Positions 22,850 to 29,619 of a stretch of DNA of 29,985 nt are shown one piece after another (within the stretch, counting starts at the first letter, position 1; each line of letters begins with the position of its first letter). The stretch lies in the IMG/VR virus record IMGVR_UViG_3300042564_001036, positions 1 to 29,985 of that record, one strand, 5' to 3'. Both the position numbers and the translations under genes were made by a program. Under the pieces are notes generated by a model that saw only the letters and a list, made by a program, of their open reading frames with translations, searched no databases and was not told the origin of the DNA. Source of the stretch: a virus.

Positions 22850-23208
22850 CTGAGGAGGAAAGCGAGGATTATTCTGCTCGTGAAAATTTAATGCTGCTCG
22901 TAGGACGGACAAAAGTCCCTTATGAGCAGCTTTTTTGTTTAAGCCGTAAAGAGTTAAAGGCATTGGTAAAAGGTCATGAGATTGACCAAAAAGACATGGT
23001 TGAGGCAATGAGAAATCATGCAATGATTGGTTTGCAACCACATTTAAAGAAGGGAGCCAATTTAGACCCAACTAAACTTTGGACTTTGCCTTGGGATAAA
23101 GTAGTTAAGCCTTTGGAGTCAACGCCTCAAGACTTTGCTAAAGCAAAGAAATTGTTGGAAATTGCAAGTAAACTAGAAAGAAATGTCAAATCCAAGAATA
23201 GAAGTTGA
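22843..23208 (+). CDS. Tail assembly chaperone extension (gpT-like), read after -1 frameshift
   Basis: This frame is open from 22828 but has no start codon before an ATG at 22891. Reading through the A9 run adds NITEEESEDYSARENLMLL and then RTKVPYEQLFCLSRKELKAL and IDQKDMVEAMRNHAMIG, giving a fusion of 228 residues (107 + 121). The two-frame architecture before a tape measure gene is the well-known conserved tail-assembly frameshift of long-tailed phages. Translation from the internal ATG at 22891 alone is less likely because it would lose the acidic linker. It overlaps the tape measure gene by 26 bases. Confidence 0.7.
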   Translation, partial: NITEEESEDYSARENLMLLVGRTKVPYEQLFCLSRKELKALVKGHEIDQKDMVEAMRNHAMIGLQPHLKKGANLDPTKLWTLPWDKVVKPLESTPQDFAKAKKLLEIASKLERNVKSKNRS

Positions 23209-25042
23209 CTTTGCTGTAAATGTTGCTGGAGTAGCAAACGGGGTTAGCGCGGCAACATCTCAACTTGATCAATTAGGAAAGGCTGCACAATCGACTGCGC
23301 CTAAAGTTGAGCAATTAGGAAAAGCTACTAGCAGATATAATGGTATAGGAATTGATTTCGCTAGAGTAATTCAAGATGCTCCTTTTGGAATTATTGGTGT
23401 TGGTAACAACATTCAACAATTGGCCCAATCATTTTCAGCTTTAGGTAACGCTGGAGATTCATCAATTTCAAAACTAAAAACAGCATTTAGTGCAATATTT
23501 AGTTCTGGAAATCTTTTGATTTTAGGTGTATCAGCTTTAACTTCTGCACTTACTTATCTTACTCAAAAAGGATTTTTTGATGCAGAAAAAGCCGCAAAAA
23601 GCTTAGATGACCAATTAAAAGAATATCAAGATACTTTAGGGTCAATTGATAAAGCAACATTAAAAGGTATTCAAAACTCTGAGAGTGAAATTCAGAAATT
23701 TAAGAATCTAACGTCTCAAGCTCAAAATTTAAATGTTTCTGAAAAAAATAGGATTGCAGCTGTTAATGAATTACAGAAAAAATATCCTGACTATTTAGGT
23801 AATCTTACAAAAGAGCAAATTTTAACTGGAAATGTTGGAGATTCTTATGATGCATTAACTAAGCAAATTATTGCAAATGCAAAAGCAAAAGCTTTTTCAG
23901 ATGAAATTACACAAAACAGCAGTAATCTTCGTGCTTTAGAAAAGCAACAATTAGATACTGCAAATCAAATTTTAGCTAAACGAGTAGAATTAGAAAACGC
24001 TAAGAGAGTAAGTACTCAATCTGCTCAAAAAGTGGCTGGTCAATTGGCAGCTACTGATTTAAATTTAGCTGGTATTCAATCGCAATTGAATGATTTGATT
24101 GAAAATCAAATAAAGTCAATTGATGAGGCAAATAAAATTAAACAAACAAATCTTGAGCTTGATGGATTAATTAATAAAGAATTACAAAACGGAGCGGTAT
24201 TTACTAGCAAGAGTACTGAAGAAAATAAAAAACTAACTAGGAGTTATGAAGATTTATCTAAAATAACTCAATCTTTAACTTTCGCAAGTCTTGAAAGAGG
24301 TGGAAGTTTTTTTGAGGATGTTGAAAAACAACTTGTATCTATTGAATCTGGAGTAGCTACTACAAGAGGTATTTATCAACAAAATATTTCTGCAATAACT
24401 CAATCAAACCAGGCTTTAGTTGATTCTTTAAGTGGAAGTGGTATTGGAATAGAACAATTTTACGCCTCAATTGCTAACGGAGCCGCAGAAGGTTTTAGTT
24501 CTTTAAATACATTTATTACGAGCCTTTCTGAAACTCAAGCCTTTATTAATGAAACCTTTGAAATTTTAGAGCAAGGTGCTGAAAATACACTTGGGGACGT
24601 TGCCTTTGCAATTGGTGACGCTTTAGCAAGTGGTGGCAACGTAATTAAAGCTGCTGGCTCTGCGTTACTTGGCGGATTAGCTGGTATTTTAAATCAATTA
24701 GGACAATTAGCTATTGCAACTGGTCTTGCAGTAGAAGGCATAAAAAAGGCTTTGCAAACCCTTAATCCAGCCGTTGCAATTGCAGCTGGAGTTGCTTTGG
24801 TTGCCTTAGCTGGTTTTGTATCAAACAAAGCTAAAAGTTTGGGGGGTTCAAGAGGAGGTGGTGGCGGAGGTGGTGGCTCCTCAGTTGGAAGCTCAGGAGT
24901 TGGAGGCGGAACATCATTTGCTGGAGGTGGACAAGGTAGTTTGTTTCAGCAAAACAGAGACTTAACAGGAGAGTTAGTGGTTAGAGGTCAGGACTTAGTA
25001 TATGTGTTTTCACAAGCAAACAATAGGATAAATAAAGGCTAA
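23183..25042 (+). CDS. Tail tape measure protein
   Basis: A 619-residue, mainly helical, Gln/Asn/Ala/Lys-rich protein with a start SNPRIEVDFAVNVAGVANGV, coiled-coil segments from about 120 to 330, a hydrophobic stretch near 485-555 (VIKAAGSALLGGLAGILNQL, then LNPAVAIAAGVALVALAGFV) and a Gly-rich tail. The hydrophobic part may enter the host inner membrane on ejection. At about 1.5 angstroms per residue the tail would be roughly 90 nm, on the short side for siphoviruses. The Gly run near residues 557-570 comes from GGN codons and may be variable. Confidence 0.85.
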   Translation: MSNPRIEVDFAVNVAGVANGVSAATSQLDQLGKAAQSTAPKVEQLGKATSRYNGIGIDFARVIQDAPFGIIGVGNNIQQLAQSFSALGNAGDSSISKLKTAFSAIFSSGNLLILGVSALTSALTYLTQKGFFDAEKAAKSLDDQLKEYQDTLGSIDKATLKGIQNSESEIQKFKNLTSQAQNLNVSEKNRIAAVNELQKKYPDYLGNLTKEQILTGNVGDSYDALTKQIIANAKAKAFSDEITQNSSNLRALEKQQLDTANQILAKRVELENAKRVSTQSAQKVAGQLAATDLNLAGIQSQLNDLIENQIKSIDEANKIKQTNLELDGLINKELQNGAVFTSKSTEENKKLTRSYEDLSKITQSLTFASLERGGSFFEDVEKQLVSIESGVATTRGIYQQNISAITQSNQALVDSLSGSGIGIEQFYASIANGAAEGFSSLNTFITSLSETQAFINETFEILEQGAENTLGDVAFAIGDALASGGNVIKAAGSALLGGLAGILNQLGQLAIATGLAVEGIKKALQTLNPAVAIAAGVALVALAGFVSNKAKSLGGSRGGGGGGGGSSVGSSGVGGGTSFAGGGQGSLFQQNRDLTGELVVRGQDLVYVFSQANNRINKG

Positions 25043-28000
25043 TGGCTAACGATTATAGATTACTCCTTTCCGTTCGAGAAGGTCTTGGCACAATAACAGT
25101 TAACGGCGTGGCTCCTTTGGACTTTTATACCGAAGGTGATACATTAACAATTGCGGTTGCCCCTGATTCGGGTTACCATACCGCATTGTGGTATAGCTCT
25201 CCAAACAATACTTTCTTATCCTCTAGCTTGTCATTTAGTTACACAATGCCAAGTGAGGATGTTAAAATATATACGGTTTTAACAGGCCAAAATGTTCCTA
25301 TAAATGACTACGGCTTAAAATATGAGGGGGGGTATGCTACCAACTACGGTGGTTTAGTTTGGAACTTGCAAATACTCAGGACTGGATATTCAGGGGATGT
25401 TACTCCTTTATCAATTAATGACATCACATATAATTGGGGAAATACAGGAGATGATCCGTTAAACACAATAATTGGTTCTTCTGTCGACTTTACAATAGCT
25501 GGACAAACTGGAGACTTTAACGAGTTTCTTGTTGGAGGCAATCGAACTTGGAAGGTGTTATTAAATCAAGTTGGAGAAAACAATGACATTACAAATGTTC
25601 AATCTGTAACAACCTCTGCAAGTTTTAGAGGGATGACTTTTGGTAATGGTGTTTTTGTTGGAGGATTTGGTTCTAGTGTTTATTACTCTTTTGATGGATT
25701 AACCTGGCAATTAGCTTCAGGATTTACAAGCAGTTATTTTGCTTTTGGTAATGGGACTTTTGTAGGTGTTGGTTTTGCAGATGTTGCTGGAATTCCAACT
25801 GGTTTTGCAATTAGTTCAACTGATGGAGTTAACTGGACTAGCAGAACTCCAGCGGCAAATATTTCATGGCAGGATGTATCTTATGGTAATGGATTATTTG
25901 TTGCCGTGGCTAGAACTGGAGCTGGTGACAGAATAATGACTTCCCCAGATGGCATAACTTGGACATTAAGAGATAGCGGAATAAATCCAAATTTTAGTGG
26001 TGTTGCTTACGGAAATGGTATTTGGGTTGCGGTCTCTGATTCTTCTCCTGGAGGGACAACCTTTACGTCTTACGATGGAATTACTTGGGCGGAACAAGCT
26101 ACTGTTTTCAGCGGAAGAAGTGTATTCTTTGCAAATGGAATTTTTGTAACTGGTTCTCAATGGTCAGAAGACGGAATAAATTGGTTTTCAGCAAGTGGTT
26201 CGTTTAATCCATTCCAAATTACTTATGGAAACGGATATTTTGTAGGAGTTGTAAATACTGGAACAAATAGAATTTACTATTCTACTACTGGTAAAAGTTG
26301 GACTGCAATGCCAGCAGCTTCGGATGCATATTTTGAGGCAATTACATTTGGGCAAAATAAATTTATCATTGGGGCAACAAGCGGAACAAATCGAATAAAT
26401 TATATTCTATACGAAGGTCTCCAACCTTTCTTTAGCGGTTACATAGCTCCAGACTTTATTACCTCTCCATTTACTAGTGGGCCAAAGTTATTTTCTTTTA
26501 CTGCAATAGATGGATTAAAAGGTTTTGACTCTATACGCTCAAATTTTACCTCTTGGCCTGATCCGAGAACTCAAGCAATTTCAGCTGTTGTTGGAGCATT
26601 GAACCAATCTTTTGTTGACAAGCGCCAAGTATTTATTGGATGCGAAGTACACGAGACTAGGATGGATTCTGACGTAAGCGTTTTCCGTCAATTTAATGTT
26701 CCTCGAAATGCAATTTATACAGATGGAGAATCGGCTAAATTTACAAATGGAGTAAGGATAGAAAACGAGCAGTTGTATTTAAGTGAAACATTGCAAAGGA
26801 TGGTTAATCCTTTTCTTTGCCGAGTGTTTTTGTGGAAAGATAAGTTTTATGTTATTCGTTTAAATGAGTTTATTAAAACGGATTATAAGGCATATACTTT
26901 TAACCCTGACACGTCAATTGAATCAACGCAAAACATTATTAACGGCGATGATATAAACGCAGACATTAATAGACCTGAAGAGACGGCAAGAAGAGTTTTT
27001 ACCGAGTTTAACTCTTACTTAAATCTTGGAGTATTAGACCCAAATAGTCAGGGCGGAGTATTCGATGCTAAGTTTGCGATTGAGGAGTGGAATTTAAATA
27101 GTGTAGGGTCAACTTATGCTAACATTTATCAATTAAAGCTTTGGGATTATCACATGGCAATCCCAACTAATCAGCCATCAAGCGTTCCAACTGGAAATAC
27201 GGCCTTAGTGCAGTACGTTTCAGGAGGGGGGGAGTATGTTCAAATTTGGACAACAACCACAACTGATGGAATAGATGACCCTAATTTGTCTTGGATTTCT
27301 GCAAGCACAAATACAACTGGAGGAGCAATTACAATTGCTGAGGAAACTGCTAATACTATTTCTTTAACCTTTCAATACATGGTTGAAAGGGTTGGCCAAG
27401 ATGACCCAATAACTCCTGGCGCTCATTCGATTGGCTTAATGATTAGAATTGGCAATCAATATTTGTCAAGAAGTGGGGCCACAACATTTGCTTGGACTGC
27501 AACGAGTACAGTAATGGAGTTTGCGGTTACTGCTGGCTCTGTTTGGAATAGCATTGCTATAAACAATGTTTTAGTGCCAGTGGATGGGGATGTTGAAATA
27601 AGATTGCATCAACTCATTTGCAATGGAGGAACTCCAAACAGATACGTTGTAAGGTATGAAAACCTTTCTTTAAAGATTGAGAAAACCAACGGCTTATCTT
27701 TGTCAAAGCTTGGAGTTAAGGGAGTTACTGGCTCACCTTATGCTAATGTGCATCCCGATTACAACACTTATATAGGTGATGCAATAACAAGTAACTCGGC
27801 TAGTGCAATTCGATTGATTAATTCTGACAATGCAGTTTCAGAGGCTTGGTCACGAGATGGCGTAGAGGAATTGCCTTTATTAGATATTATCGTCCAAGAA
27901 TTAGCTAACTTGAAGGGCCGAACGAATTACAGAATATTGGCAACTGTTGAACGTAGAGCATTAGACCCTTTTAGGTCTTTCTTGTATAATGGAAGATATT

Positions 28001-28086
28001 GGGCGCTTGTGAGTTACGAACTTGATTGCAGAAAAGGAACGGCAAAAATTGAGCTTTACGATTTAGGAATAGAACCGACGACATAA
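25042..28086 (+). CDS. Tail hub/baseplate protein with inserted seven-repeat beta-propeller
   Basis: A 1014-residue protein. Residues 1-80 form a beta-repeat domain (GTITVNGVAPLDFYTEGDTL) and 85-180 a distal-tail-like domain ending GGNRTWKVLLNQV. Residues about 192-458 contain seven repeats of Y/F-GNG-x-F-V-x-V ... S-x-DG-x-x-W-T (starting near 197, 230, 277, 319, 357, 391 and 432), the layout of a seven-bladed propeller. The original fold resumes at FFSGYIAPDFITSPFTSGPK and FTAIDGLKGFDSI (about 463-497), as in siphovirus hub proteins, and continues through a long beta-rich C-terminal half. It should sit at the tail tip. The propeller probably binds a surface glycan or receptor. Confidence 0.75.
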   Translation: MANDYRLLLSVREGLGTITVNGVAPLDFYTEGDTLTIAVAPDSGYHTALWYSSPNNTFLSSSLSFSYTMPSEDVKIYTVLTGQNVPINDYGLKYEGGYATNYGGLVWNLQILRTGYSGDVTPLSINDITYNWGNTGDDPLNTIIGSSVDFTIAGQTGDFNEFLVGGNRTWKVLLNQVGENNDITNVQSVTTSASFRGMTFGNGVFVGGFGSSVYYSFDGLTWQLASGFTSSYFAFGNGTFVGVGFADVAGIPTGFAISSTDGVNWTSRTPAANISWQDVSYGNGLFVAVARTGAGDRIMTSPDGITWTLRDSGINPNFSGVAYGNGIWVAVSDSSPGGTTFTSYDGITWAEQATVFSGRSVFFANGIFVTGSQWSEDGINWFSASGSFNPFQITYGNGYFVGVVNTGTNRIYYSTTGKSWTAMPAASDAYFEAITFGQNKFIIGATSGTNRINYILYEGLQPFFSGYIAPDFITSPFTSGPKLFSFTAIDGLKGFDSIRSNFTSWPDPRTQAISAVVGALNQSFVDKRQVFIGCEVHETRMDSDVSVFRQFNVPRNAIYTDGESAKFTNGVRIENEQLYLSETLQRMVNPFLCRVFLWKDKFYVIRLNEFIKTDYKAYTFNPDTSIESTQNIINGDDINADINRPEETARRVFTEFNSYLNLGVLDPNSQGGVFDAKFAIEEWNLNSVGSTYANIYQLKLWDYHMAIPTNQPSSVPTGNTALVQYVSGGGEYVQIWTTTTTDGIDDPNLSWISASTNTTGGAITIAEETANTISLTFQYMVERVGQDDPITPGAHSIGLMIRIGNQYLSRSGATTFAWTATSTVMEFAVTAGSVWNSIAINNVLVPVDGDVEIRLHQLICNGGTPNRYVVRYENLSLKIEKTNGLSLSKLGVKGVTGSPYANVHPDYNTYIGDAITSNSASAIRLINSDNAVSEAWSRDGVEELPLLDIIVQELANLKGRTNYRILATVERRALDPFRSFLYNGRYWALVSYELDCRKGTAKIELYDLGIEPTT

Positions 28087-29619
28087 ATGGCAGACGTAAA
28101 TATTAGCAAATACAGAGCGCAAGTTGTGAGGGAGGGTTCAACTCCTGCATCACCTGGCTTTGTTGTTTCTGAGGGGCAAGACCCTGTAAATCCATCGGGA
28201 ACATCTAATTACGTTCCTTATTCTGGAGCGATTTCTAATGTTGACCTTGGAGAGTTTGGATTGGATACTGGTTTTGTCACATTAGATACTACGCCAACGA
28301 ATATCCCAACGGAGCAGGGTGGTATTTATTGGGACGATACTAGAAGCACGGCTGTGCTCATAATGAATGGCGTTTTACAACACATTGGGCAAGACACTTT
28401 CTTTTATGTAAAAAACTCAACTGGCGCAAGCATTCCAAAAGGCACCTCTGTAAGATTTGATGGAACAGACGGAGCAAGCGGTCACTTGCTAATTGCTCCC
28501 TTCTTGGCAAACGGAACTTACCCAAGCAACTACTTTATGGGAGTTACTGCGGAAACAATTGCTAATGGGGCATTTGGTCAAGTTATGCACTTTGGCGAAT
28601 TAGATGGTATTAATACGAGCAGTTATACTGCTGGCGCTTTGCTTTACGCAAGTACTACTGTTGCAGGAGGATTTCAGACTACGGCTCCAGTTGCTCCTAA
28701 TAACATCGTTTTGATTGCTGCTGCGATTAACTCTAAGAACAACGGAGAGATACTTGTAAGACCTACTTACGGGTCTAATATTAACCAAGATGAGGGAGTA
28801 AAGATTGTTTCTCCTACTACTGGTCAGCTGCTTCAGTTGCAGTCCAATGGTCTTTGGGAGAACAAGACTAAGGCGCAAGTTTTAGGTGGCACATCTTCGC
28901 AGTTTGTTAAGGGTGATGGTAGCTTGGATTCGACAATCTATGTTAGCGGGTCAGGCACAAGCGGACAAGTTGCTTACTTTAACGGAACAACAACAATAAC
29001 TAGCGAGTCAAATTTATTTTGGGATGCTACAAACGACAGACTTGGAATTGGAAGCGCAACACCAACCGTCAAACTAAGTGTTTCCAACGCTGCAAACGGC
29101 AACATTGCATTGTTTACAAATACCTCTGACGCTGACTTATTCGTAAATCTAACTAGCGGAGTAACATTACTAACACCATCGACAGGAACCCTAGCATTTG
29201 GAACTTTAAACACCGAGCGAGTTAGGCTAAATATTAATGGCAATTTATTAGTTGGCACAACTTTAGACAACGGCTCTAAGCTGCAAGTTAACGGCTCATT
29301 TTCCGCTCCTCATGTTACAAAGTCAGCAAACTACACTTTAGATGCAACCGATTACACGGTTGGATTTGATTGTGCTAGCAACAGAACTGCAACGCTTCCC
29401 GATGCAACAACTTGCCAAGGTCGTATTTATGTAATTTACCAATTCAACACAGGGTCAGGCGCTAGGTCGGTAACCTTGGATGGCAATGGCTCTCAAACAA
29501 TAAACGGAGTTACAACTTATTCCTTATCTCCTTTTTGCGAATACTCCTCTGTAATGATTCAATCAAACGGAGCAAATTGGATTATTATTTCAAGCAACTT
29601 TACAACTGATTGTCTTTAA
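28087..29619 (+). CDS. Tail fibre / receptor-binding protein
   Basis: A 510-residue Gly/Ser/Thr/Asn-rich beta protein. The N-terminal 60 residues (ending NYVPYSGAISNVDLGEFGLD) are a typical tail-attachment segment; in the middle is a VRFDGTDGASGHLLIAPF-like bulb. At about residues 290-330 is GQVAYFNGTTTITSESN followed by NLFWDATNDRLGIGSATP, a fibre-repeat motif shared by many Bacteroidota phages and adhesins. The last 100 residues (SANYTLDATDYTVGFDC) form a C-terminal beta domain with three cysteines, likely the receptor-binding tip. It starts immediately after the hub stop (TAAATG), so the two are cotranslated. Confidence 0.8.
   Translation: MADVNISKYRAQVVREGSTPASPGFVVSEGQDPVNPSGTSNYVPYSGAISNVDLGEFGLDTGFVTLDTTPTNIPTEQGGIYWDDTRSTAVLIMNGVLQHIGQDTFFYVKNSTGASIPKGTSVRFDGTDGASGHLLIAPFLANGTYPSNYFMGVTAETIANGAFGQVMHFGELDGINTSSYTAGALLYASTTVAGGFQTTAPVAPNNIVLIAAAINSKNNGEILVRPTYGSNINQDEGVKIVSPTTGQLLQLQSNGLWENKTKAQVLGGTSSQFVKGDGSLDSTIYVSGSGTSGQVAYFNGTTTITSESNLFWDATNDRLGIGSATPTVKLSVSNAANGNIALFTNTSDADLFVNLTSGVTLLTPSTGTLAFGTLNTERVRLNINGNLLVGTTLDNGSKLQVNGSFSAPHVTKSANYTLDATDYTVGFDCASNRTATLPDATTCQGRIYVIYQFNTGSGARSVTLDGNGSQTINGVTTYSLSPFCEYSSVMIQSNGANWIIISSNFTTDCL

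Follow-up and report, generated by a model that had tools for sequence, protein, structure and literature searches.

The window analysed here, an entire IMG/VR record of 29,985 bases, encodes a tail hub protein that carries an inserted domain, confidently predicted to be a closed seven-bladed beta-propeller, and this domain is swapped among relatives as a whole cassette. The propeller is probably an exchangeable accessory adsorption disc, tethered in a hairpin turn of the hub with its variable face free and with a putative role in host-surface binding.

The hub gene and its insert-free relatives

The open reading frame at 25042..28086 (+ strand, like all window features given here) is genuine and encodes 1014 amino acids. 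Directly before it lies a tape-measure gene (23183..25042; phrog_20660, 8.8e-9 and phrog_30292, 6.2e-49) and after it a gene for a tail fibre-like protein of 510 aa (28087..29619), of which the first ~45 residues are conserved as an anchor, being the only part common to most relatives, and the remainder is highly variable. A major tail protein is also encoded near the hub gene, and terminase, portal, protease and capsid genes lie further upstream. This gene order and two distant relatives, PHG11b_43 of Flavobacterium phage 11b and, weakly, gp22 of Cellulophaga phage phi39:1, point to a tail hub or tip (Tal-like) protein. Family searches with the whole hub matched an N-terminal Pfam domain alone, InlB B-repeat-like (PF18998 Flg_new_2, 26.0 bits vs. 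a cutoff of 23.6; residues 27-76, 25120..25269), with no PHROG and no PDB sequence match. The portal had its best match in Flavobacterium phage 11b, followed by Cellulophaga phages, which makes a Bacteroidota host plausible for the window phage; the best matches of the capsid were Microbacterium phages and that of the terminase an Aeromonas phage.

The first half of the hub domain covers residues 84-175 (25291..25566) and ends in the hairpin strand TWKVLL, as placed by alignment with 11b and phi39:1 and by a model of its counterpart in the insert-free relative L065 (pLDDT about 40-80). Alignments with insert-free hubs place the resumption of the hub at FFSGYIAPDF, from residue 463 onward (26428..28083). 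An earlier note on this DNA, made from the sequence alone, had described a hub that is interrupted after WKVLLNQV and then picked up again, and this description holds, as WKVLLNQV starts at residue 170 and insert-free relatives align on both sides. Further downstream, residues ~777-881 (27370-27684) are predicted to form a beta-rich domain, possibly a jelly roll (pLDDT about 50-76).

Among 78 loci fetched with the hub protein, the segment is present in 71 and absent in seven (L064-L070), which read WKVVLS-EG-x-TIFF in place of residues 176-459 of the window and have flanks that are about 70-72% identical. A hub-only profile added four contigs (L113, L115, L118 and L119), one of them (L113) insert-free, which brings the total to 8 of 82 IMG/VR relatives; since the protein search covered the best 80 of 102 relatives and the profile search the best 80 of 95, this is a count of fetched contigs and not a frequency. 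The relatives are metagenomic contigs and often fragments, and in L118 the start of the propeller alone is visible. L064-L070 are nested among propeller-bearing hubs, which would suit a loss of the propeller, but in a tree with poorly supported deep nodes (0.19 and 0.51); L113, nearest to L054 (80%), forms an insert-free lineage of its own. No propeller was found elsewhere in the eight insert-free records, which are fragments and were searched without a positive control.

More distantly, the insert is absent from all 31 loci of the 11b group (counting 11b itself), whose alignments run across the site with a short turn at that point. PHG11b_43 and phi39:1 gp22 likewise align over the site and are insert-free; gp22 is a virion protein by MS/MS according to its record and is the next gene after the tape measure. 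Its homology to the window hub is based on tblastn (E 0.3), pairwise BLAST (E 1e-7 with composition adjustment off), gene order and alignment; hhalign with the phi39:1 hub was not significant (probability 1.4%), and a scan with it matched phage phi39:1 itself alone. The link to 11b is based on alignments and on the similarity of 11b to phi39:1 gp22. In many members of the 11b group the match begins no earlier than residue ~118-137 of 11b, which makes the hub N-terminus modular too. The propeller is thus a true insert in the hub protein, as the earlier note had proposed, and since 8 of the 82 relatives and every one of the 31 loci in the 11b group lack it, it is dispensable: a hub does not need it. 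An insert-free hub is about 734 aa long.

In a model of the L065 fragment the insertion site falls where strand 90-96 of a beta-hairpin turns into strand 99-106. This model has a mean pLDDT of 43.8 and improves on the full-length AlphaFold2 model, in which most of the hub scores 21-50, in the first ~130 residues only. The domain resembles tail-tube and hub domains (T4 gp27, T5 pb3, the RcGTA hub and lambda tail proteins) with weak Z scores of about 5-6, e.g. 5.8 over 100 residues with 1k28_D (T4 gp27); the best was 6.2 and all were below 8, at a local pLDDT of 40-80.

Predicted fold of the insert

The insert comprises residues 176-459 (~284 residues, 25567..26418), as delimited by its absence in relatives, AlphaFold2, VIA and the breakpoints of exchange (177-188 and 461-462). 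With an alignment of 38 sequences, AlphaFold2 gave propeller blocks at 181-460 with a pLDDT of 78-94, and the 27 strands within residues 197-456, together with an N-terminal strand, make seven times four strands in a closed ring, in agreement with the ring that the earlier note had expected. The N-terminal strand (residues 186-189, 25597..25608; DSSP of the model) would close the ring as the fourth strand of blade 7, an assignment derived from the strand count. Based on the model, the loop map and the motifs, blade 1 spans residues 190-228 (25609..25725), blade 2 residues 229-270 (25726..25851), blade 3 residues 271-313 (25852..25980) and blade 4 residues 314-355 (25981..26106). Blade 5 (residues 356-386, 26107..26199) is the shortest and has ANG instead of GNG, blade 6 (residues 387-426, 26200..26319) has TGKSW instead of DGxxW, and blade 7 (residues 427-459, 26320..26418) lacks DGxxW and is completed by the N-terminal strand. 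The blade assignment is our own, and the fourth strand of blade 5 (382-384) is short and partly called by DSSP.

Seven GNGxFV-like motifs were found at residues 201, 236, 282, 324, 364, 396 and 437 (one ANG, one GQN). The DGxxW pattern had seven matches, six in register (five DGxxW and one TGKSW) and one off phase (370, TGSQW), and the in-register motifs span residues 201-443. In 10,000 shuffles of the segment at most two GNGxFV-like and four DGxxW-like motifs arose, and none of either kind occurs in the remaining hub protein, so the seven repeats counted in the earlier note are right; its signatures do not apply in every detail, given ANG, GQN and TGKSW and a blade 7 without DGxxW.

In VIA the closest structure was virginiamycin B lyase 2z2o (Z 26.8, 265 residues, 3.1 A, 11% identity), and a designed seven-bladed propeller, 7bie, scored Z 22.8. 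The best Foldseek match was Ycf48 (5ojr, E 8.6e-9, 17% identity), and a sialidase (4fj6) was also among the Foldseek matches. That enzymes such as the seven-bladed lyase and the sialidase appear here could imply that the propeller itself is an enzyme, for instance a tip depolymerase that cleaves glycans or acts as a lyase, but we regard this as very unlikely: the likeness is one of fold, at 11% identity, variability within the domain is highest in those top-face loops where an active site would lie, and no enzyme family scored above the cutoff. Indeed no Pfam family did so for the propeller, including carbohydrate-binding, sialidase and BNR families. The Asp-boxes of BNR sialidases read S-x-D-x-G-x-x-W, and the propeller repeats S-x-D-G-x-x-W, one residue shorter; with no Pfam BNR match either, the domain was not assigned to this group.

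The best BFVD matches of the propeller are phage or giant-virus proteins (e.g. M1PQ47, 36% identity over 315 residues), and those at ranks 3 and 6 are phage proteins annotated with an intramolecular chaperone auto-processing domain, which we take to mark fibre-type proteins. A scan of genome contigs with the hub protein gave one match, in a Treponema MAG contig (L080, 1543-2415), where a related propeller with 35% identity is encoded and the match is confined to propeller residues. Hypothetical proteins of Limnohabitans phage DC31 and Stenotrophomonas phage RAS14 have the same type of propeller (32-34% identity), and their genes stand within runs of mostly hypothetical genes.

Cassette exchange and variation

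Exchange was analysed in codon alignments of 60 full-length genes (1770 pairs), i.e. the window and 59 of the 71 propeller-bearing loci, 12 partial loci being dropped. Propeller identity hardly followed hub identity (Spearman 0.148), whereas segments of the hub followed the remaining hub closely (0.79-0.86). Where the hub was at least 95% identical (272 pairs), the propeller was below 60% identical in 111 pairs, 60-80% in 107 and at least 95% in 41, with the other 13 in between. DNA identity profiles show a step, and in 138 pairs with hub DNA at least 88% and propeller DNA at most 65% identical the fitted breakpoints had medians of 187 and 462 and 10th-90th percentiles of 177-188 and 461-462, which are the edges of the domain. 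At the protein level L002 and L033 share 98.5% of the hub and 44.5% of the propeller. The reverse was found in 21 mutually non-independent pairs, e.g. L016/L052 with 99.6% identical propeller DNA and 85.2% identical hub DNA; L019/L030 proteins are 82% identical in the hub and 94% in the propeller. The 60 proteins carry 19 propeller alleles at 80% single linkage. The propeller is therefore swapped among relatives as a whole cassette. In an AU test (FastTree topologies; 45 of the 60 sequences after dropping near-duplicates; 2000 replicates, below the iqtree advice) the propeller data rejected the hub tree with a delta lnL of 4231. The hub halves rejected each other's trees by 278 and 726 lnL, so recombination within the hub is real but much milder.

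This mild recombination of the hub halves, and breakpoints that in some cases fall inside the propeller (L037/L038, 262-440), would also be expected if repeated blades in an insert-tolerant loop simply recombine often, with no gain from a new specificity. The dN/dS ratios agree with such neutral exchange in that none exceeds 1 in the propeller, its loops or the hub (54 pairs), so that no positive selection is shown. We nevertheless hold neutral exchange to be quite improbable, as highly divergent alleles that stay intact under purifying selection (dN/dS 0.18 for the propeller), and variability on one face of it, are more easily explained by a role in recognition. By these ratios the propeller is constrained and its top loops are looser, with 0.27 for the BC/DA loops, 0.08 for the AB/CD loops and 0.11 for the hub.

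With strands taken from the model, mean entropy was 1.57 in BC loops, 2.02 in DA loops, 0.53 in AB loops, 0.86 in CD loops and 1.24-1.48 in strands; pooled, BC and DA loops reached 1.82 vs. 0.77 for AB and CD loops (p 1.4e-10). The GNG and DG motifs are located in the AB and CD loops, and conservation there is thus partly structural. In the model the chain begins the ring with the last strand of blade 7 and completes it with the third strand of that blade, so by this topology both tethers would lie on the AB/CD side and the variable BC/DA face would point away from the hub. The strongly conserved AB/CD loops could instead form an interface, with the propeller serving the tip structurally or as a gate and having no receptor role, as in the T7-type nozzle and crAss001 muzzle; seven-bladed propellers with a channel role do exist in phage tails, according to excerpts of PMC10172136. 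This appears unlikely, because 8 of the 82 relatives have hubs that lack the propeller but are otherwise normal, because alleles of 44.5% identity sit in hubs of 98.5% identity, unlike a part that needs to fit its neighbours, and because the variability is found on one face.

Other parts of the tail module vary as well. DNA comparison shows that the tape-measure gene is variable too, over its last ~1.5 kb; in the pairs L002/L033, L039/L042 and L048/L073 DNA identity is 0.46-0.67 over much of the region about 1800-150 bases before the hub start, and at the hub start itself it is 0.87-1.00. Complete fibres of propeller-bearing loci reach up to 1199 aa, and one has at least 1251. Those of insert-free loci have 1618 aa (L068), 1855 aa (L069) and at least 1513 aa (L065), and L067 has one of 671 aa plus an ORF of at least 1094 aa; in L064, L066 and L070 the fibres are cut by contig ends. 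A longer fibre that compensates for the missing propeller was considered and set aside, given the 671 aa of L067; moreover, the insert-free loci with long fibres are one clade and hence one event, which makes the observation anecdotal.

Proposed role and comparison with known systems

The propeller is dispensable, sits in a hairpin turn, is kept intact, is replaced whole and varies on the face that would be free, all of which suits an accessory adsorption domain. The disc would be held near the tail tip, both its ends tethered on the AB/CD side in the hairpin turn of the N-terminal hub domain, and its free BC/DA face may bind a variable feature of the host surface, probably a glycan, alongside the separate fibre. 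Recombination in conserved hub sequence on both sides would replace the whole propeller, and this may change specificity while leaving the injection machinery untouched. Exposure on the virion surface, ligand binding, a glycan as the ligand and an effect on host range are what we infer to be most likely, with exposure of the disc resting on a hub core that is modelled with low confidence. Binding of a receptor or glycan is plausible and favoured by the cassette exchange, the variability of the loop face and the kinship to fibre-type proteins. Against a role in adsorption count the dN/dS ratios that never exceed 1, the lack of a match to carbohydrate-binding or sialidase families and the hubs without propeller in both groups of relatives. 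It could well be that a swap of the disc in the injection hub, independent of the fibre, changes recognition, with one hub lineage carrying many discs or none. Nature has provided an experiment here, as near-identical hubs (up to 98.5%) carry discs of 44.5% identity and other hubs are empty, so that the contribution of the disc to adsorption can be tested directly.

The earlier note had called a receptor-binding disc in the tail tip besides the fibre an unusual design; in view of known systems it is less unusual than that. In Gram-positive siphophages, as described in parts of PMC7291167 and PMC10688798, carbohydrate-binding modules (CBMs) are inserted in evolved Dit proteins or in the gp27-like N-terminal domain of evolved Tals, besides an RBP, and phi11, PRD1 and PhiKZ provide examples of propellers in phage adhesins (excerpts of PMC4901313). 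No description of a hub domain with an inserted propeller turned up in the literature searched, which leaves most subscription journals outside its scope.

Several of these systems share individual features with the window. PhiKZ gp131C likewise has a seven-bladed propeller at the tail tip, at the baseplate periphery, for which receptor binding was proposed, but there it is the C-terminal domain of a peripheral protein (PMC4901313, in part), whereas in the window it is a hub insert with no PDB sequence match. In the RBP Gp45 of siphophage phi11 a propeller also serves as a recognition module of the tip, which is its putative role here, but as a five-bladed platform in a separate trimeric protein (same excerpts); having seven blades within a hub, the window protein was not counted among the phi11-type RBPs with their trimer, stem, platform and tower. 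In crAss001 gp44 and the T7 nozzle the seven-bladed propeller of a tail protein belongs to the core of a short tail's muzzle or nozzle, a hexamer that forms the channel (PMC10172136, in part), unlike the insert in the window hub. T5-type hubs have extra domains inserted in hub domains as well, but with different folds and at a different site, and the T5 plug closes the tube.

The best reading of the window propeller is by analogy with the decorations of evolved Tal and Dit proteins. As in the window, a module, ligand-binding there and putatively so here, is built into a loop of a conserved hub protein that some members have without it, an RBP is present in addition, and the flanks align with insert-free relatives. 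According to the available parts of PMC10688798, Dit inserts of skunaviruses correlate with the exopolysaccharide (EPS) type of the host, and phages given an evolved Dit fully infected EPS+ hosts. The modules of evolved Tal and Dit are BppA-type or other CBMs; the insert here is a 284-residue seven-bladed propeller, so it was not identified as a BppA-type CBM, and the window hub may work like an evolved Tal but is not classed as one. If this reading is true, decorated-hub adsorption modules would include propellers besides CBMs and would occur beyond Gram-positive phages, in a group with distant relatives that infect Bacteroidota.
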